Source of the DNA: Phycisphaerae bacterium
Lineage (GTDB): Bacteria; Planctomycetota; Phycisphaerae; JAJVII01
Reading direction: 5' to 3'
DNA length: 64,000 nt
Assembly: GCA_022072085.1 (NCBI GenBank)
Contig: JAJVII010000037.1
Coordinates: forward strand, 1-64,000
The notes beneath the pieces were generated by a model that worked only from the letters and a program-made list of their open reading frames with translations, had not been told where the DNA came from and searched no databases. Position 1 is the stretch's first letter. Each line of letters begins with the position of its first letter. The translations under genes were made by a program, and so were the position numbers. Positions 4,533-46,809 of the stretch are shown here, piece by piece.

Positions 4533-5399
4533 ATGCGAACCGGCAGACGGCCTGCATTCACGCTGGTGGAACTGATGGTCGTCGCGGCCATCATCGCCGT
4601 GCTGCTGACGCTGACGATCCCGGCCGTGACGGGGATTGTGCGCAGCAGCCACGAGTCGCAGGCGGTGAACCTCGTGCGGGCGTCGCTGACCGGGGCGCGG
4701 TTCTATGCGATGGAGAAGGGCGTGGTCGCGGGCCTGCGGTTCCAGCAGGATGGCAGCATCGTGCCGGTGTACGCCCGCAATTCGAACGAGACCCTTTCGC
4801 TCCAGAACTACACGGCCGTCCCGCTGTACGACATGAAGTCGGTGGAGGGGGAGGGCACGACGCAACTGCCCGGCGCGTGGCGGGTGACCGTCGCCGACGT
4901 CGGCAACTGCAGCAACATCAGCACCAGCGGGGGCCTGATCCAGACCTGGATCGGACCGGGGACGGGCAACCACCTGGCCGACCCGCGGTGGTACAACGAC
5001 GGCGTCGACGCGTGGTTTGTCTATCCGACGGTGCTGTTCGCTCCCAGCGGCAAAGTCATCCTGGGCGACTGCATCTACCGCAGCAATCCGCCCTGGAATC
5101 CGTCGCTGAACGGGGCCTTCGGAAAGGTCGTCGACATCAACTACACCAACCAGACCGCGTGGGCCGGCTGGCGATCGACGACCTACGAAGGCGTCGGCGG
5201 AAGCCAGGACATCCCCGTGCTCACTCCGACGACGACGATGGTGCTTCGCGTGTTCGATTACGCGTCGTTCCGCGGCGAGTACGCCGCCAACAGGAACAAC
5301 TCGCTCTACGCTCTGCTGGAGACCGGCATCGACTGCATGCTCGATCCCAACACTGGAATGGTCGTCCGGATGGACGAATACTCGACCGACAGCAACTGA
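4533..5399 (+). CDS. type II secretion/type IV pilus-like pseudopilin
   Basis: Prepilin motif RRPAFTLVELMVVAAIIAVLLTLTIPAV; ORF opens at 4512. Confidence 0.85.
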   Translation: MRTGRRPAFTLVELMVVAAIIAVLLTLTIPAVTGIVRSSHESQAVNLVRASLTGARFYAMEKGVVAGLRFQQDGSIVPVYARNSNETLSLQNYTAVPLYDMKSVEGEGTTQLPGAWRVTVADVGNCSNISTSGGLIQTWIGPGTGNHLADPRWYNDGVDAWFVYPTVLFAPSGKVILGDCIYRSNPPWNPSLNGAFGKVVDINYTNQTAWAGWRSTTYEGVGGSQDIPVLTPTTTMVLRVFDYASFRGEYAANRNNSLYALLETGIDCMLDPNTGMVVRMDEYSTDSN

Positions 5400-38261: not shown

Positions 38262-38283
38262 GATGTTGACCGAAATCAACATC
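38262..38283. promoter_or_regulatory. candidate activator binding site (UAS) for the 38382 promoter
   Basis: GATGTTGACCGAAATCAACATC, perfect 8-bp arms, 100 bp upstream of the -24 GG. Confidence 0.7.
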
Positions 38284-38381: not shown

Positions 38382-38397
38382 TGGTACGCCGTTTGCA
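38382..38397 (+). promoter_or_regulatory. sigma-54 promoter (-24/-12)
   Basis: TGGTAC-GCCGT-TTGCA. Confidence 0.85.
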
Positions 38398-38530
38398 AGC
38401 AAGTAGATTGCGAGGCATCAGGCCGGTTGAGAGAGAGAAAACGGGACCTCACCATTGTTCGCCCGCCAGTGCGAACCACACCACGAAGTGTCCCAAGCCT
38501 CGCAGAAAAACTCAGAGCGATGTGACCCTG

Positions 38531-39538
38531 ATGGAGGGGACACAGAAGGTGAGTATCAGAAAAGACCCACCGCCGATGGGCGCTATTTGCGCCGATTTGG
38601 GCCTGGTATCCGCGTCGGTCCGGCTGAAGGAAGTGCTCAGCCTGGCCCAGGCGGTCGCCCGCCGCGAGACGACAGTGCTGGTGCTGGGCGAGTCCGGCAC
38701 GGGCAAGGAAATGGTTGCCCGGCTGATTCACGCGGCCAGCGTCCGCTGCGACGGCCCGATTGTCCCTGTGAACTGCTCGGCCCTGACCGGCACGCTCTTT
38801 GAGAGCCAGTTGTTCGGTCACGTCCGCGGCGCGTTCACGGGCGCCCACGCCGATGCCATGGGCTTCTTCCAGGCCGCCGACGGCGGGACGCTGTTCCTGG
38901 ACGAGATCGGCGACATCAGCTTCGAACTCCAGTCCAAGCTGCTGCGCGTCCTCCAGGACCGTTACGTGATTCCCGTCGGCAGCGTGCAGCCCAGGCCCAT
39001 CGACGTCCGCGTCGTCGCGGCGACCAACTGCGATCTGCACCAGCGCGTTCGCGAGGGCAAGTTCCGAGAGGATCTCTTCTATCGCCTCAACGTCATCACA
39101 GTCGAGGTCCCTCCGCTCCGCGAGCGGAGAGAGGACATCCTGCCGCTGATCGGCCATTTCATGGGCCGACTGGCTGAGTTCTATGAAGAGCCCTGCAAGC
39201 GTCTGGACGACGAGGTTTCGCACGTGCTGACCAGCTACAACTGGCCGGGCAATGTGCGCGAACTGATCAACGTTGTCGAGCACGTCGTTACGGTTCAGGC
39301 TGGGGACGTCGTGGGACTCAAGCACCTGCCCGTGCGGCTGCTGGAGGCGATGAACGGCGGCGATTCCTCGGGCGTCTTTCCGACGCTGGACCAGGTCGAG
39401 CACGATCACATCCGGCGTGCCCTGGACCTTTCCTCGGGCGAGAAGAGCACGGCTGCGCGGATGCTCGGGATCGCGCGGCCGCGGCTGTATCGCAAGCTCC
39501 GCAAGTATCACATCGAGACCGGCGATCCGGTCAATTGA
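38531..39538 (+). CDS. sigma-54-dependent activator (AAA+, GAFTGA loop, Fis-type HTH), no sensory domain
   Basis: VLVLGESGTGKEMVARLIH, RGAFTGAHADAMGFFQAADGGTLFLDEIGD, C-terminal STAARMLGIARPRLYRKLRKYHI; GTG 38549 has a better Shine-Dalgarno. Confidence 0.93.
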   Translation: MEGTQKVSIRKDPPPMGAICADLGLVSASVRLKEVLSLAQAVARRETTVLVLGESGTGKEMVARLIHAASVRCDGPIVPVNCSALTGTLFESQLFGHVRGAFTGAHADAMGFFQAADGGTLFLDEIGDISFELQSKLLRVLQDRYVIPVGSVQPRPIDVRVVAATNCDLHQRVREGKFREDLFYRLNVITVEVPPLRERREDILPLIGHFMGRLAEFYEEPCKRLDDEVSHVLTSYNWPGNVRELINVVEHVVTVQAGDVVGLKHLPVRLLEAMNGGDSSGVFPTLDQVEHDHIRRALDLSSGEKSTAARMLGIARPRLYRKLRKYHIETGDPVN

Positions 39539-39608: not shown

Positions 39609-39715
39609 GCGGCGTAACGAAACGTGACAGCGGGACATTTCGTTACACGTCGAGTTCGGCCGCTCGGGACGCAGGCGAAGTGGCGATGTGCGAAGCGTGC
39701 GGCGTAACGAAACGT
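39609..39715. promoter_or_regulatory. three GTAACGAAA elements (two 17-bp direct repeats 90 bp apart plus one inverted)
   Basis: GCGGCGTAACGAAACGT at 39609-39625 and 39699-39715; TTTCGTTAC at 39638-39646. Confidence 0.7.
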
Positions 39716-39837: not shown

Positions 39838-39853
39838 TGGCACGCCGTTTGCT
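39838..39853 (+). promoter_or_regulatory. sigma-54 promoter (-24/-12)
   Basis: TGGCAC-GCCGT-TTGCT, exact consensus. Confidence 0.9.
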
Positions 39854-39954: not shown

Positions 39955-40341
39955 GTGAAAGGCAGTCTTCTGGTCGCGGATGCGGCTGGGCAGGCGGCTG
40001 TTCCGGAGGTCGTCAGAGAACATTGGGAATGGCTTGAGTGGTTCTTTGAGACCAGCGGTACGGCGGCATTGGCCAGGCTTCGTCAGTTTCGTCCTGATCT
40101 GGTGATCGCCAACCTGCAATTGCCCGACATGTGCGGAGCAGAGCTGGTTGAGCGGATCAAGAGAGGCAGGCCGAATCAGAGAATCCTGGTCACCAGCAAC
40201 ACGGCCACCCGGCTGAGCGAGCGGGTGGCGCGGACCCTGGGAGTCGTGGGTTACTTTCCCAAACCCCTGGATCCGCAGCTCTTTGAAGATGTCCTGGCGG
40301 CGACGGTGGGAGGAAGCGAGCGCCTCGCCAGACGGATCTAG
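39955..40341 (+). CDS. single-domain receiver-like protein lacking the phospho-acceptor Asp
   Basis: FRPDLVIANLQLPDMCGAELVERI...ILVTSNTATRLS...VVGYFPKPLDPQLFEDVL; GTG start. Confidence 0.75.
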   Translation: MKGSLLVADAAGQAAVPEVVREHWEWLEWFFETSGTAALARLRQFRPDLVIANLQLPDMCGAELVERIKRGRPNQRILVTSNTATRLSERVARTLGVVGYFPKPLDPQLFEDVLAATVGGSERLARRI

Positions 40342-40413
40342 GAGGCGAACCGGAGCAGGGGGCCGGTTCCAGGCTGATGGGGAAGTGTCCATGTGGGGTC
40401 GGAGGAGTGCACC

Positions 40414-40752
40414 TTGAAACGGCTCTTGATCTGGGCGAGTCCGGTTCTCGGGATCATCGTTGGGATGGCGGCGATCCTCGTCCTGCGGCATCAATCCTCG
40501 GCTGACGCGGAGTATGTCGCACCGGCTGCCAAAGTGCAGTTGAAGGACGCGAAGACAAATAAGAATAGCAGCGATCCGGCGGCCGACCTGGCCCCGAGGC
40601 CCTTTGTCCTGCCGACCGTCGAGGACGGACTGCGGGCACACGCTCCCGGGCCGCTGGACCGGGTGGATCCGGCGATCGACACTCGTCTGGTGCCTGGCGC
40701 TTCGGTGACCACGCCCGACGACCTGGTGGTGATTCCCGATCTGGACGGCTGA
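40414..40752 (+). CDS. small single-TM hypothetical protein
   Basis: TTG start after GGAGGAG; LLIWASPVLGIIVGMAAILVL TM, then a polar domain. Confidence 0.6.
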   Translation: MKRLLIWASPVLGIIVGMAAILVLRHQSSADAEYVAPAAKVQLKDAKTNKNSSDPAADLAPRPFVLPTVEDGLRAHAPGPLDRVDPAIDTRLVPGASVTTPDDLVVIPDLDG

Positions 40753-40779
40753 CAGGCCCGGCCGACCGATCGCGACGAT

Positions 40780-41358
40780 CTTCTCTCTCTCACTGGCCTC
40801 CCGCGAGGTCGTCTTTCAAGGCGGTTTCGCGGGACTTGAGAACAACCCGGCGCGGCGGAATCGTGAGGGTCGCCAAACCGGTTGAAAAGTTCAGAAGCCT
40901 TCTCTCTCTCACTGGCCTCCCGCGAGGTCGCCTTCCAAGACGGTTTCGCGGGATTTGAGAACGACCCGGTGCGGCGGAATCGTGAGAGTCGCCAAGCCGG
41001 TTGAAAAGTTCAGAAGCCTTCTCTCTCTCACTGGCCTCCCGCGAGGTCGTCTTCCAAGGCGGTTTCGCGGGATTTGAGAACAACCCGGCTGGGCAGTAGT
41101 GAGTCGCCCGGCTGGAAAAAGTTCATAGTCCACCTTCTCTCTCTCACTGGCTTCCCGCAAAGTCGCCTGGCAGCGGTTTTGCGGGATTTGAGAACGACCC
41201 GGTGCGGCGGAATCGTGAGAGTCGCCAAGCCGGTTGAAAAGTTCAGAAGCCTTCTCTCTCTCACTGGCCTCCCGCGAGGTCGTCTTCCAAGGCGGTTTCG
41301 CGGGATTTGGAATCAACCCGGTCGGCAAGGTCCGGCTGGATAAGTCGGTTTGAGAATC
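40780..41358 (+). repeat. five tandem ~119-bp non-coding repeats, each with hairpin(s)
   Basis: Unit starts at 40780, 40899, 41018, 41134, 41251 (CTTCTCTCTCTCACTGG); spacing 119/119/116/117. Confidence 0.92.
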
Positions 41359-41920
41359 AGGCAGCGCCCCGGGCCGCGAGCGCCCCGGGTGTTGCGGTGA
41401 AGGGCGGCCTTGCGGGCAATCGGAGGGCAGCAACTTCCTTGCCCGCGAGCAACTTCCCCTCAGCGAGCGCGAACGGCATGCGACCGTTCTGACGCCCGCC
41501 ACCCGGTGATCCGGCAGCGGGTTCTTCTCTTTCCGTGCTCCTACCACATGACTTCCCGATGGTCGAGCGGCACATGCCTCCCGGCTCGCTTTGCGCGCCG
41601 TCCTCGGCCCACCGCATGCGTGCGGCGTGCACTTGACGAGGCACTGGCTAGTGGGGATCCCGGGCGGCCGCTGGAGTCGTGTGAGGCGGGCAACAGTGAA
41701 TTTGTGATTTTGATAGACTTCCCAATTTGACAGCCGCGGGGGGAACTCCGTAAGTCCTGTCGGCTTCCTAATGTGCGTGTTCCTGTTTGGGTGGGAACTC
41801 TCATTCGCAACGGGGCAATGCGGGAATCGTCAGATTTTTTCTTGCTTTCGCGAGATCATGGTGTTGAATATTAGGTGCTGCCCTCCGATTGCTTCGCAAC
41901 GAAGCAATCACTCATGGACA

Positions 41921-41956
41921 AGGCGAACTGGTCCCTCCAGATCAGCTCGCCTTTTT
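41921..41956 (+). terminator. Rho-independent terminator
   Basis: AGGCGA-a-CTGG-tccct-CCAG-atcagc-TCGCCT-TTTT. Confidence 0.75.
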
Positions 41957-42107
41957 CATGTACCCGGTCCGCCCGCGGCATTGAATCCCCCGCCGTTGCT
42001 GGTAGAGTAGAGCGATTGTGTTATCGGCGAGAGGGAGTCCATCCCTCGTTGTTGCGGGCCGACGGCAGCCAAGGACGGGCCCGCCAGACCTGACTGACAG
42101 ACCGACC

Positions 42108-44468
42108 ATGGAATGCGTGCAGGACATCCCTGAAGACCTCTCCCCGCGACTGACCCAGATGCTTCCGCCCGAGGACCGCCGCCGCGTCTGCCTGTTCGGC
42201 GACGTGGACCTTCAGGGCCAGTATGGCCGATGCGTGCTGGCGGCCGACGACGAGCGGCTCTTCTTCGGCCCGCAGGGCGCCAACGGCGACGGCGAACTGG
42301 CAATGGTGCCGCTTCGCGACATCCGCGGTCTGGAGTTGCGAAACTACGTCGGCAACGGATCGCTGGTCGTCGTGCGCGAGTCGGACAGCCTGGAGGTCGC
42401 TCGGTTCAGCCAGTCGATGCTCGACGAGTTCGAGAAGGCTGCCGCCCGCATCGGGGAACTGGCCGAGAAAAGCGGCGCCAGATCCGACAGCGGGGACGGG
42501 CGGTTCTTCGGCGGCCGCATGGTCCGCAAGGCGCCGCGCTGCCCGCAGTGCGGCCGGGCGCTCTCGCCGCGGGCCGAGGTCTGCCTCTATTGCGCCGACA
42601 AGCGCAAGCTGGTCTTCCGCCTGGTCTCGCTGCTGAAGCCCTATCGACTGGCCAGCGTGATTCTGCTCGTGATCACGCTCAGCAGTACGCTCCTGGGGCT
42701 GATCCCGGCCTACCTGACCAAGTACATCGTCAACTCGGCGATCATGGTAGGCAACTACTCCCTGTTCTGGGTGTTCATCGGCGTCTATGCCGGCTGCTTC
42801 CTGCTGATCGCCGCGCTGGACGGCGCCCAGTCCTGGTTGTCGGGCTGGCTGGGCCAGACGGTCATCTACGACCTGCGGATGCGGGCGTTCGACAGTCTCC
42901 AGCGGCTCTCGCTGCGGTACTACGAATCCCGGCAGACCGGCAAGCTCATCAGCCGACTGACCAACGACTGCGAGCGCATCGAGCGGTTCATCGTCGATGT
43001 GCTTCAGCAGCTCATTGTGGACGTGCTGACGCTGGTCATCATCCTGACGATGCTGGTGCAGATGAACTGGCGCCTGACGCTGGTCACGCTGGCTCCGGTG
43101 CCGATCCTGTTCGTCATGGTCTACATCTTCACCCGTCGCATCAAGCGGACCTACCGCAAGGCCTGGCGGACCTCCGCGAGCCTGACCAGCCACCTTGCCG
43201 ACGTCATCCCCGGCGTCCGAGTGGTCAAGGGGTTTGCACGCGAGCCGGTCGAGCGCGAGCAGTTCGCCGGCCGATCGACGCGGCTGCTCAACCACATGCT
43301 CAGCGTCTTCCGCCTCCGCGCCAGCGTGTTTCCCGTCATCGGACTGCTCAGCCGCATGGGCTACCTGCTGCTCTGGCTGCTCGGCGGCTACTGGGCCATC
43401 CAGATGATCGCCAGCGACCCCTCCGTGGTGAACGACCCGGCCCGCAACCCCATCGGCCCGCTGTTCGCGTTCACTGCGCTGCTGTGGCGGTTCTACGATC
43501 CGCTCGGCCGACTCAGCCGCGTCACCGACCAGGTGCAGCGGGCGACGACGTCGGCTGAGCGGGTGTTCGAGTTGCTGGACGCCTTCCCTGACGTCAGCGA
43601 GCCGGACGATCCGCTCCACCTGCCGGGCCGATCGACCGGCCGCGTCCACTTCAAGGGCGTGAGCTTCGCCTATGATTCGCACGTCCCGGTGCTGGACAAA
43701 GTGGACCTGGAGATCCAACCGGGCGAGATGATCGGCGTCGTGGGGCACAGCGGCGTGGGCAAGAGCACGCTGGCCAGTCTGTTGATGCGGTTCTACGATC
43801 CCGACGAGGGCGAGGTGCTGCTGGACGGCGTGAACGTGCGGCGGCTGACCGGCAGCGAGCTGCGCGGCAACATGGGCCTGGTGCTCCAGGAGCCGATGCT
43901 CTTTCACGGTTCGGTGCTGGACAACATCCGCTACGGCAAACCGGACGCGTCGCTGGAGGAGGTCATCGCGGCGGCGAAGGTCGCAAACGCCCACGGCTTC
44001 CTGCTCCGCCTGCCGGAGGGGTACGACTCGCAGATCGGCGAGCGCGGCGTGCGGCTGAGCCAGGGCGAAAAGCAGCGGATCAGCATTGCCCGGGCAATCC
44101 TGCGCGACCCGCCTATCCTGATCCTCGACGAGGCCACCGCCAGCGTGGACACCGAAACCGAGCGGTTGATCCAGGCGGCGCTGGACCGGCTGGTGAAGGG
44201 CCGCACCGTCATCGCCATCGCCCACCGCCTCAGCACGCTGCGCCACGCCAGCCGGATCATCGTCCTGGACGGCGGCGGGATTGCTGAGATGGGCACGCAC
44301 GAGCAACTGCTCGCCCGCGGCGGGATCTACTACGACCTGTGCGCCGCCCAGTCCATGCTCGGCCGGGACCTGACCGACAGCCCGGTGGCCCGATCGGCGG
44401 CGACGGCGGCGGTCGTCGAGCCCGAACCGGCGCCCGAGCCCGAGGAGTATGAGAAAGATGAATTCTGA
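42108..44468 (+). CDS. ABC exporter (TMD-NBD) with N-terminal domain and CxxC...CxxC zinc ribbon
   Basis: CPQCGRALSPRAEVCLYC before TM; Walker A GHSGVGKSTL, signature RLSQGEKQRISIARAI, Walker B ILILDEATASVD. Confidence 0.92.
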   Translation: MECVQDIPEDLSPRLTQMLPPEDRRRVCLFGDVDLQGQYGRCVLAADDERLFFGPQGANGDGELAMVPLRDIRGLELRNYVGNGSLVVVRESDSLEVARFSQSMLDEFEKAAARIGELAEKSGARSDSGDGRFFGGRMVRKAPRCPQCGRALSPRAEVCLYCADKRKLVFRLVSLLKPYRLASVILLVITLSSTLLGLIPAYLTKYIVNSAIMVGNYSLFWVFIGVYAGCFLLIAALDGAQSWLSGWLGQTVIYDLRMRAFDSLQRLSLRYYESRQTGKLISRLTNDCERIERFIVDVLQQLIVDVLTLVIILTMLVQMNWRLTLVTLAPVPILFVMVYIFTRRIKRTYRKAWRTSASLTSHLADVIPGVRVVKGFAREPVEREQFAGRSTRLLNHMLSVFRLRASVFPVIGLLSRMGYLLLWLLGGYWAIQMIASDPSVVNDPARNPIGPLFAFTALLWRFYDPLGRLSRVTDQVQRATTSAERVFELLDAFPDVSEPDDPLHLPGRSTGRVHFKGVSFAYDSHVPVLDKVDLEIQPGEMIGVVGHSGVGKSTLASLLMRFYDPDEGEVLLDGVNVRRLTGSELRGNMGLVLQEPMLFHGSVLDNIRYGKPDASLEEVIAAAKVANAHGFLLRLPEGYDSQIGERGVRLSQGEKQRISIARAILRDPPILILDEATASVDTETERLIQAALDRLVKGRTVIAIAHRLSTLRHASRIIVLDGGGIAEMGTHEQLLARGGIYYDLCAAQSMLGRDLTDSPVARSAATAAVVEPEPAPEPEEYEKDEF

Positions 44469-44994
44469 CGCCGCGACAGGGCAGGGTGGCGGGATCATCG
44501 GCTCAGCCGACAGCCGCTGGCTCGATCCGGCGCGCATCCGAATATCGGCCGACCGCAACGATCGGCTGTTCCTGACCGACGAGGCTGGCGTCCGGCACGA
44601 GGGCGTCCGCGTGGGCAAGATGTTCGCCCTGACCGAGCCGGACCGCTACGTCAGCTTCTGCACGTCCGACGGCGAGGAGATCGGCCTGCTTCGCGAGCCG
44701 GCGGAGCTGGCTGAAGACTCGCGGGAGTTGCTGCGGAGGCATCTGAGGCGGCAGTATTTCGTTCCGGTGATCACCGGCGTGCGGGAGATTCGCGAGTTCT
44801 GGATGGACCAGACCTGGACCGTCCTGACCGATCGGGGGCCGCGGCAGTTCACGCTCCAGGGACGCGAGGCGATCCGCTTCCTGGGCAAGGGGGCCATGCT
44901 GCTGATCGACACCGACGACAATCGGTACCTCATCGAGGACAGCCGCAAGCTGGACGCCGCGAGCCGGAAATGGATCGACAGCTACGTGTGGTAG
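44449..44994 (+). CDS. DUF1854 family protein
   Basis: Overlaps the exporter 3' end; YFVPVITGVREIREFWMDQTWTVLTDRGPRQF. Confidence 0.75.
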   Translation: MRKMNSDAATGQGGGIIGSADSRWLDPARIRISADRNDRLFLTDEAGVRHEGVRVGKMFALTEPDRYVSFCTSDGEEIGLLREPAELAEDSRELLRRHLRRQYFVPVITGVREIREFWMDQTWTVLTDRGPRQFTLQGREAIRFLGKGAMLLIDTDDNRYLIEDSRKLDAASRKWIDSYVW

Positions 44995-45202
44995 GGCCCG
45001 CGGCCGCCGGCCTGATGCCTGCAATTTTGGCGTGACTCGTCGGATCGGCGCGCGTAGAATTTCCCGCTTCGACAGGGGATAGTGACCGGGCCTGTGGTTC
45101 TGGGCCGAGCCCGCAGACCGAAGGGGACGGGAGTCCAACGGCCTACATTCAGCGGCTGGAGGGTCCGCGGATGTTCACTTTTATCAACAGGCAGGGCAAG
45201 AA

Positions 45203-45222
45203 ATGTTGCCTTTCGGCAACAT
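45203..45222. promoter_or_regulatory. candidate activator binding site (UAS) for the PEP-CTERM promoter
   Basis: ATGTTGCC-TTTC-GGCAACAT, 120 bp upstream of the -24 GG. Confidence 0.7.
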
Positions 45223-45340
45223 CCGGACTAATCGGCACCCCCCGAAGTGGCCGATAATGTGCGCGTGTGGAATCTTAAGTTTTGAAGTTGCCGAAGCTTG
45301 CGTTGTCCAGTTAGAATTTCTGTTCTCAGGAGATCGTGAC

Positions 45341-45356
45341 TGGTACACTGTTTGCT
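45341..45356 (+). promoter_or_regulatory. sigma-54 promoter (-24/-12)
   Basis: TGGTAC-ACTGT-TTGCT. Confidence 0.87.
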
Positions 45357-45513
45357 AGTCTTATGAACCTTGAGAGAGGAAGCCAGGAAGGGCACGCCAG
45401 GCCCGGCTTGGCTGGTTCATGAGAGTGACCGACCCGGGAGGCCGGTGAGAGAGACTGCTCCTCCCGGGGCAGCAACGGAGCCTTTCGGGTTCCGGCCAGT
45501 GAGGGAAACACCA

Positions 45514-46809
45514 ATGTGCAAGCGTAATTACCTGCTCAAGGCGTGCGCCTGGGGAATGCTCCTGTTCTTTGCCGGCTTCGGAGGGGTTGCCACCGCCTCG
45601 GCCGCCGACTACGTCATCCATGACGTGACGATCCACGCCACGGAGTGGGCGATCTACAAGGACGTCAACGGCAACGGCGTCTACGATGCCGCCGACGAGC
45701 AGGCCGGTCCGCTGGCCTGCGTGCAGAACATGCTTCAGTACCTGTCGGCCGGCACGAGCTACGACTACTTCCAGTACATCACGCCCAACGGCGCCGACGC
45801 CTCGGGGTTCCCCAACTCCAGCGACGGTTCGTTCATCGGCGGCGGCAATACGACCTGGCTTCAGCCGCAGCGCGACCAGCTTCAGTTCTGGCTCGCCTAC
45901 AGCCGGCTCGACCATGACCTGAAGGATCCGTGGAACACCCCCGGCGCCGACGCGCCGCACGGATACAACCTGGACATGATCATGGGCCGCACCGACCGCA
46001 TTGCCGACCTGAACGATCCGAGCCACCCGACCTGGGCCTACATCGTCGACGGTCCCAACGCGACCAAGGACTACGGCATGGGCGCGGGCGTCATTGACGC
46101 GGGCATTGACATCTCGGCCGCCTACGGGCCGGGCTACACCATCTACAAGCCCACCGAGGGCGAGACGGCCAACACCGTCAAGATCGACTTGGCCATGACC
46201 GGGTCGAGCCTGACTCCCTGGGTCGTCATGTCCGACGACGTGGACACGGCCAACGACAGCGTTTCGACCCCCGTGCCGCCCAGCCCGGGCCGCCCGGAGC
46301 GGCCGCCGCTCGGCGGCGCCGGGACCGTGGCCGGTCAGGAACTGGTCGGCATCTCGACCGGCGACATGACCAAGACCGACGGCAGCGGCAGCTATGACGC
46401 GGCCTTCCGCGGCGACTGGACCTACAACAAGGACACCACCGACGGCGGCGTGCTGGGCAACTTCACGCCCGAGAGCAGCGCCCTGGGCAGCCTCATCATC
46501 CGCGTCGACCTCAACTCCCTGGGCACGGGCGACGACGCCATCAGCAAGATCATCTTCTACTCGTTTGCCCAACTCGACCCGGACAACCCGTTCTACCAGG
46601 CGATGACGCTCTACGACCTGATGGACGCGACATCGACGCTCAACGGCCTGACGGTCGGGGAAGGCGACACGTTCTTCATCCTGTCCAACTGCAACTGCGA
46701 TAGCTTCAACACCCCTGAGCCGGCCACCATGGCCCTGCTGGGCATCGGCGGCGCGGTCATCGGTGTCGGCGGAGCGGTGTCCCGTCGTCGGCGCGCCCGC
46801 CGGTCCTGA
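45514..46809 (+). CDS. PEP-CTERM sorting domain protein
   Basis: Signal peptide; C-terminal TPEPATMALLGIGGAVIGVGGAVSRRRRARRS. Confidence 0.92.
   Translation: MCKRNYLLKACAWGMLLFFAGFGGVATASAADYVIHDVTIHATEWAIYKDVNGNGVYDAADEQAGPLACVQNMLQYLSAGTSYDYFQYITPNGADASGFPNSSDGSFIGGGNTTWLQPQRDQLQFWLAYSRLDHDLKDPWNTPGADAPHGYNLDMIMGRTDRIADLNDPSHPTWAYIVDGPNATKDYGMGAGVIDAGIDISAAYGPGYTIYKPTEGETANTVKIDLAMTGSSLTPWVVMSDDVDTANDSVSTPVPPSPGRPERPPLGGAGTVAGQELVGISTGDMTKTDGSGSYDAAFRGDWTYNKDTTDGGVLGNFTPESSALGSLIIRVDLNSLGTGDDAISKIIFYSFAQLDPDNPFYQAMTLYDLMDATSTLNGLTVGEGDTFFILSNCNCDSFNTPEPATMALLGIGGAVIGVGGAVSRRRRARRS

Follow-up and report, generated by a model that had tools for sequence, protein, structure and literature searches.

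The closest described arrangement to the locus reported here comes from Rhodobacter sphaeroides, in which the homologous tandem RNAs CcsR1-4, members of the cuckoo RNA family, derive from the 3′ UTR of ccaF1, a small ORF controlled by an alternative sigma factor (PMC8625941, PMC10253847). The PEP-CTERM/exosortase regulon with PrsK/PrsR, described in Proteobacteria by Haft et al. 2006 (PMC1569441) and shown to be RpoN-dependent in Aquincola (PMC9850573), provides the second point of reference, and is characterized by genes with long upstream regions, by promoters of the sigma-54 type and by an upstream activator site. A third is provided by decoy RNAs of the CsrB/RsmZ type, with their many protein-binding hairpins.

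The locus lies in a 64,000-nucleotide stretch of a Phycisphaerae genome (the window), and contains a tandem array that, like CcsR1-4, consists of homologous hairpin units 3′ of a small ORF with an alternative sigma factor, as judged from the sequence, although the factor is sigma-54 rather than RpoH. The pyrimidine-rich stretches of the CcsR RNAs suit pairing with purine-rich leaders, a further likeness to the array. The hosts are nonetheless different, with a PF00072 receiver-domain protein and a small membrane-type protein without a known family standing in place of DUF1127; the anti-element of the array is CUCUCUCACUGGCC, where the CcsR word is of the CCUCCUCCC type, and its targets would be PEP-CTERM leaders. 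Because both host gene and pairing word differ, the array, which is known from sequence alone, is not filed as a CcsR member. The likeness to the PrsK/PrsR regulon lies in the promoters and upstream regions; here, however, the organism belongs to the Phycisphaerae, the activator lacks a receiver domain, and a leader element and an antisense array are both unmentioned in the consulted sections on the proteobacterial regulon. In the literature searched we found no description of RNA-level control of PEP-CTERM/exosortase genes. With the CsrB/RsmZ RNAs the array has in common a multi-copy short motif beside stable hairpins, but on the strand that is likely transcribed it shows the leader motif in antisense, and it has no GGA in the loop.

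The best-supported reading of these features, to which we would give an even chance, is that the array RNA acts as a multi-copy antisense regulator of the leaders of the PEP-CTERM and activator mRNAs. The relevant features of the window are as follows, with identities referring to the orthologues in a second genus.

38264..38281, no strand: TGTTG-N8-CAACA site upstream of the activator gene (sequence; motif statistics)
38382..38397, +: sigma-54 promoter of the activator gene (pattern scan)
38421..38439, +: leader element GGCCGGTTGAGAGAGAGAA of the activator mRNA (sequence; predicted in a loop)
38549..39538, +: sigma-54 activator with AAA+ and Fis-type HTH, without receiver domain (PF00158 222 bits, HTH_8 42 bits; 72% identity)
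39838..39853, +: sigma-54 promoter (perfect site) of the operon ending in the array (pattern scan; TGGCATGGGATTTGCT at the equivalent place in the related genus)
39955..40341, +: receiver-domain protein (PF00072 46.7 bits; 61% identity)
40393..40752, +: small protein with a hydrophobic, membrane-type N-terminal stretch (sequence; no family match)
40780..41367, +: tandem array of five units of 116-119 nt, each CUUCUCUCUCUCACUGGCC (the anti-element) then a hairpin; read as the operon 3′ end
45204..45221, no strand: inverted repeat TGTTG-N8-CAACA, upstream of the PEP-CTERM gene and probably its activator site (motif statistics)
45341..45356, +: sigma-54 -24/-12 promoter TGGTACACTGTTTGCT of the PEP-CTERM gene (0 mismatches to TGGYACRNNNNTTGCW)
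45372..45383, +: leader element copy 1, GAGAGAGGAAGC, adjoining the predicted mRNA 5′ end (sequence; orthologue counterpart)
45433..45468, +: hairpin containing copy 2 of the leader element, GGCCGGTGAGAGAGAC, with GAGAGAG (45447-45453) as its apical loop (sequence; predicted folding)
45494..45506, +: copy 3 of the leader element, GGCCAGTGAGGGA; GAGGG, the likely Shine-Dalgarno, overlaps it (sequence; orthologue counterpart)
45514..46809, +: PEP-CTERM surface protein, 431 aa (PF07589 22.9 bits, cut-off 20.7; TIGR02595 22.9, cut-off 16)

A sigma-54 regulon and its leader element

The PEP-CTERM gene of the window has both a C-terminal motif scoring above the curated cut-offs and a -24/-12 site upstream, from whose position the leader is expected to be about 145 nt long. 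Seventy-five PEP-CTERM genes with usable, heuristically assigned starts are present in this 5.49-Mb genome, and in 39 of them the 400 nt upstream contain a perfect sigma-54 site (0.02 in shuffles), a number that rises to 50 if one mismatch is allowed. There are 83 perfect sites genome-wide, and none matching the reversed pattern. Of the 52 PEP-CTERM promoters where a sigma-54 site is present, 26 have the TGTTG-N8-CAACA repeat at a distance of 105-219 bp on the upstream side (0.1 in shuffles), and this repeat is probably the enhancer of the regulon. Sigma-54 control of PEP-CTERM genes, known from the consulted accounts of Proteobacteria (PMC1569441, PMC9850573), appears from these sites to be the same in a member of the Phycisphaerae, extending the proteobacterial description.

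The activator is not a PrsR protein by the TIGR02915 model, scoring 296.9 against a cut-off of 502.6 and having no receiver domain. At the receiver-operon promoter no N8 site is recognizable by eye, and a different inverted repeat, GTAACGAAA...TTTCGTTAC (39614-39646), is found upstream and is similar in the second genus (L247, approximately 4735-4770), so that this operon may respond to a second activator. Two other genes lie downstream of perfect sigma-54 sites in both genera, one coding for a chaperonin that is GroEL-like by eye (L173, L216), and the other for a short orthologous protein of 117 aa, possibly PilZ-like by eye (L171, L238). The array and the PEP-CTERM gene are separated by genes for an ABC exporter and, after it, a DUF1854 protein (42117-44994), a pair replaced on the array contig of the second genus by a different gene (FHA-like by eye).

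Many leaders of this regulon share a word. Expectation-maximisation on the 75 PEP-CTERM leaders, leaving out the Shine-Dalgarno region, returned GWGAGAGR as the top motif with a log-likelihood of 47.9 (24-27 in shuffles, which do not correct for the relatedness of paralogues). Unselected 8-mers give a similar picture, with GAGAGAGA (12 leaders, against 2 for the opposite strand) and, likewise, CCAGTGAG (7 against 0) among the leading words, beside promoter words; the second of these is perfectly complementary to CTCACTGG of the array, which means that the match exceeds a purine run. By a strict count of the region from -200 to -18, GAGAGAG, CCRGTGAG or GTGAGAGA occurs on the sense strand of 18 of the 75 leaders and on the antisense strand of 2, where random window segments give an expectation of about 0.3; no clear element was seen by this count in the other 57. 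The 15 GAGAGAG occurrences on both strands of the 64 kb are distributed with 2 in the PEP-CTERM leader, 2 in the activator leader, 10 in the array, on the opposite strand, and 1 elsewhere. Beyond what had been noted before, then, the element is a regulon-wide leader motif 3′ of sigma-54 promoters, and is present in three copies in the window leader, where a third related word, GAGAGAGGAAG, lies close to the predicted transcript start. A reading in which the element encodes a repeated N-terminal peptide in frame (PVRET, in the ORF from 45370) was rejected, as the frame relation to the start codon is lost in the orthologue.

The hairpin of the PEP-CTERM leader

The preliminary description of this DNA had proposed that two perfectly pairing arms in the PEP-CTERM leader present the element in an 18-nt loop. 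The arms, CCCGGGAGG (45433-45441) and CCTCCCGGG (45460-45468), and the enclosed CCGGTGAGAGAGACTGCT (45442-45459) are indeed found there, and RNA folding predicts the stem with pair probabilities of 0.97-0.99. The loop is nonetheless smaller than had been thought: an inner helix, CGGU/ACUG, is predicted to form between 45443-45446 and 45454-45457 (p ~0.96), so that the accessible loop is the 7-nt GAGAGAG at 45447-45453. GGA, the mark of a CsrA/RsmA target or decoy, is absent from the 18-nt span including this apical loop, and a CsrA reading was rejected. The 176-nt window leader as a whole folds better than 200 of 200 shuffles (z -4.3), and the 52-nt hairpin by itself is less striking (z -2.1). 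A related word just upstream of the start codon had also been reported, and corresponds to GGCCAGTGAGGGA (45494-45506), separated by a gap of 7 nt from the ATG at 45514.

It is nearly an even bet that the 45433-45468 stem is a chance or structural leader stem, serving mRNA stability without any link to recognition of the element, a reading that is compatible with every other considered here. Perfect 9-bp inverted repeats with loops of 20 nt or less are frequent in this GC-rich window (21, with 5-20 in shuffles), so the stem by itself is ordinary, and the orthologous leader lacks its 9-bp arms; on the other side, the stem frames the element exactly, with GAGAGAG as the loop (p ~0.99), and the activator leader and the orthologous leader each have one copy of the element in a predicted loop. 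Across leaders the predicted unpairedness of the element is 0.58, a modest excess over the 0.46 of other purine-rich 7-mers (background 0.39). Presentation by a hairpin, predicted for the window leader, is therefore not supported as a general rule, with the 3′ arm missing in the orthologue and the excess in unpairedness being so small, and we would ascribe to the loop at most a helper role in pairing. A further arm-framed element, CGGGAG-GCCAGTGAGAGAGGAA-CTCCCG, was seen upstream of a glycosyltransferase-like gene elsewhere (L006, G000 C2:202009); no sigma-54 site was noted for it, and its stem is not kept in a longer fold.

The tandem array in two genera

The array consists of five units by covariance model R1, begins 27 nt 3′ of the co-directional ORF of the sigma-54-driven receiver/small-protein operon, and carries the exact antisense of the leader element, CUCUCUCUCACUGGCCUCCC. 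Each unit read on the + strand has CUUCUCUCUCUCACUGGCC followed by a long hairpin, and when the five units are combined with the four of the related genus, 122 of 126 cells of this hairpin pair as + strand RNA, against 104 of 126 as minus strand RNA, mainly because a G-U kept in 9 of 9 units is a mismatch on the minus strand. Covariation in the hairpin is not above that of shuffles because most pairs never vary. Position, direction and hairpin pairing thus favour the + strand, and hence a transcript antisense to the leaders. In predicted folds the anti-element is only partly accessible, with unpaired probabilities of 0.42-0.75 in the window and 0.19-0.52 in the other genus. A weak terminator-like match at the start of the array (40768-40780) is of a kind expected by chance.

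The strand bears on an alternative that we regard as unlikely, in which the element is a site for an RNA-binding protein or for ribosome recruitment (a standby site) and the minus-strand array is its multi-copy decoy, in the manner of CsrB. Purine-rich and biased to the sense strand, the element frequently lies near the Shine-Dalgarno or in predicted loops, all of which would suit such a site, and the minus strand of the array shows GGCCAGUGAGAGAGAGAAGG beside a hairpin; but that strand gives the poorer hairpin, a simple scan for promoters of sigma-70 types found none on it, and in both genera the array is directly 3′ of a + strand operon.

The comparison genome, Phycisphaerae bacterium STB_87 (G001), is of the same family and another genus, and the array is known from these two genomes, draft or metagenome-assembled, of the one family. 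Gene order is conserved, with the activator (72% identity), the receiver protein (61%) and a small protein followed by a syntenic array in which the same anti-element recurs in four units of 110 bp. Alignment shows no invariant block longer than that formed by the anti-element and the first hairpin arm, and the anti-element is the most conserved part in 9 of 9 units, the rest of the unit diverging. On the target side, the PEP-CTERM orthologue, with 47% and 38% identity in two stretches, has a sigma-54 site upstream, and the three elements of its leader follow one another as in the window, namely GTGAGAGAGAGAGAAAG, CGGGAGGCCAGTGAGAGG and CCAGTGAGGA, the first placed as copy 1 of the window leader and the last, right before the ATG, as copy 3; a different stem is predicted around the element in this leader, with AGAGGAUA as its loop. 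The element occurs in the sense direction in 9 of 38 sigma-54 leaders of the second genus (shuffle mean 2.4) and in the antisense direction in none, and the activator leader has it in both genera. An extra sense element, GCGGGAGGCAGTGAGAGAGG, is present between the activator and receiver genes of the second genus (L247 4624-4650).

Within each genome the units are 83-98% similar, which suggests that the copies were made or homogenised recently. This would also be expected if the array were a passive repeat, a duplicated leader piece or mobile repeat with no regulatory role and with the shared word as a relic, an explanation that we find distinctly improbable: the array occupies the same place in two genera whose activators are 72% identical, its anti-element is invariant despite unit lengths of 110 and 116-119, and no further copy is found either in the genome, in BLAST searches with the leader or array, or in the other 296 of 298 genomes of the class searched with the array covariance model. 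A collection-wide scan gave seven matches, one of them the related genome, and the other six were rejected as unrelated repeats (Ktedonobacterales, Halovenus, a cyanobacterium, an uncultured bin, Bifidobacterium and Bacillus). A CRISPR array was likewise rejected, as whole units of 116-119 nt are repeated and there are no variable spacers. Rfam gives no match in the window, and nothing near threshold in 40700-45520. A little 3′ of the array a block of about 86 nt (window 41875-41960, L247 6483-6568) is 95% identical between the genera and has a stable hairpin, a terminator (GGCGA...TCGCC then TTTTT), a promoter-like TTGC-N17-AATAT and two CCCTCC stretches; it has no Rfam match, and looks like a small RNA.

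Least likely of all is a role for the element at the DNA level, as a site for a regulator such as the sigma-54 activator, with the array as a cluster of such sites, for while the element is found in the regulon of the adjacent activator and sigma-54 enhancers are able to act at a distance, TGTTG-N8-CAACA is a far better activator site (26 of 52, 105-219 bp upstream of the promoter), and the element lies 3′ of the promoter with a strong strand bias that is unnecessary for a DNA site.

Pairing of array and leaders

The anti-element is predicted to pair with the 75 leaders with a mean of -25.6, where 60 permutations of the anti-element have a mean of -22.3 and a best of -25.0, and it also pairs better with these leaders than with shuffled ones. 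The strongest partner among the 75 is the window leader, with 20 contiguous pairs including one G-U in a duplex of -44 kcal/mol; the complementarity between loop and array that had been pointed out earlier is thus borne out, and the relation is kept in the second genus. When the whole folded unit is considered, the net gain with the window leader is -18 kcal/mol, barely outside 60 permuted linkers (mean -10.8, best -17.3), and in this whole-molecule prediction the leader hairpin is opened rather than kept as a fixed loop.

We propose that the array, 3′ of the sigma-54-driven receiver operon, would form the 3′ UTR of a + strand transcript that carries several copies of the exact antisense UCUCUCUCACUGGCCUCCC beside stable hairpins, and that this RNA is probably cut into short RNAs. 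The antisense copies would pair with the site GGCCRGUGAGAGAGA in the 5′ leaders of the PEP-CTERM mRNAs and of the sigma-54 activator mRNA. In the window leader the hairpin offers a GAGAGAG loop that could start pairing, which would then open the stem. Pairing would most likely lower translation, since the third element overlaps the Shine-Dalgarno in the window gene and its orthologue, which suggests repression, and surface-protein production would come under a brake or feedback acting on the whole regulon. That a single sigma-54-controlled, repeated 3′ UTR RNA pairs in this way with the shared leader motif of many exosortase-cargo (PEP-CTERM) mRNAs and of the activator mRNA, and so sets the output of the whole surface-protein regulon, is a broader proposal that we put forward tentatively, with its chances somewhat short of even.

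The repetition of the leader and array arrangement in a second genus points to a form of RNA-based control of this gene set that has gone unrecognised. If the array does act on the leaders, it would constitute a regulon-wide antisense system in the Planctomycetota in which both the target and the antisense sides can be read from the sequence, and it would provide a reason for the long leaders of PEP-CTERM genes.
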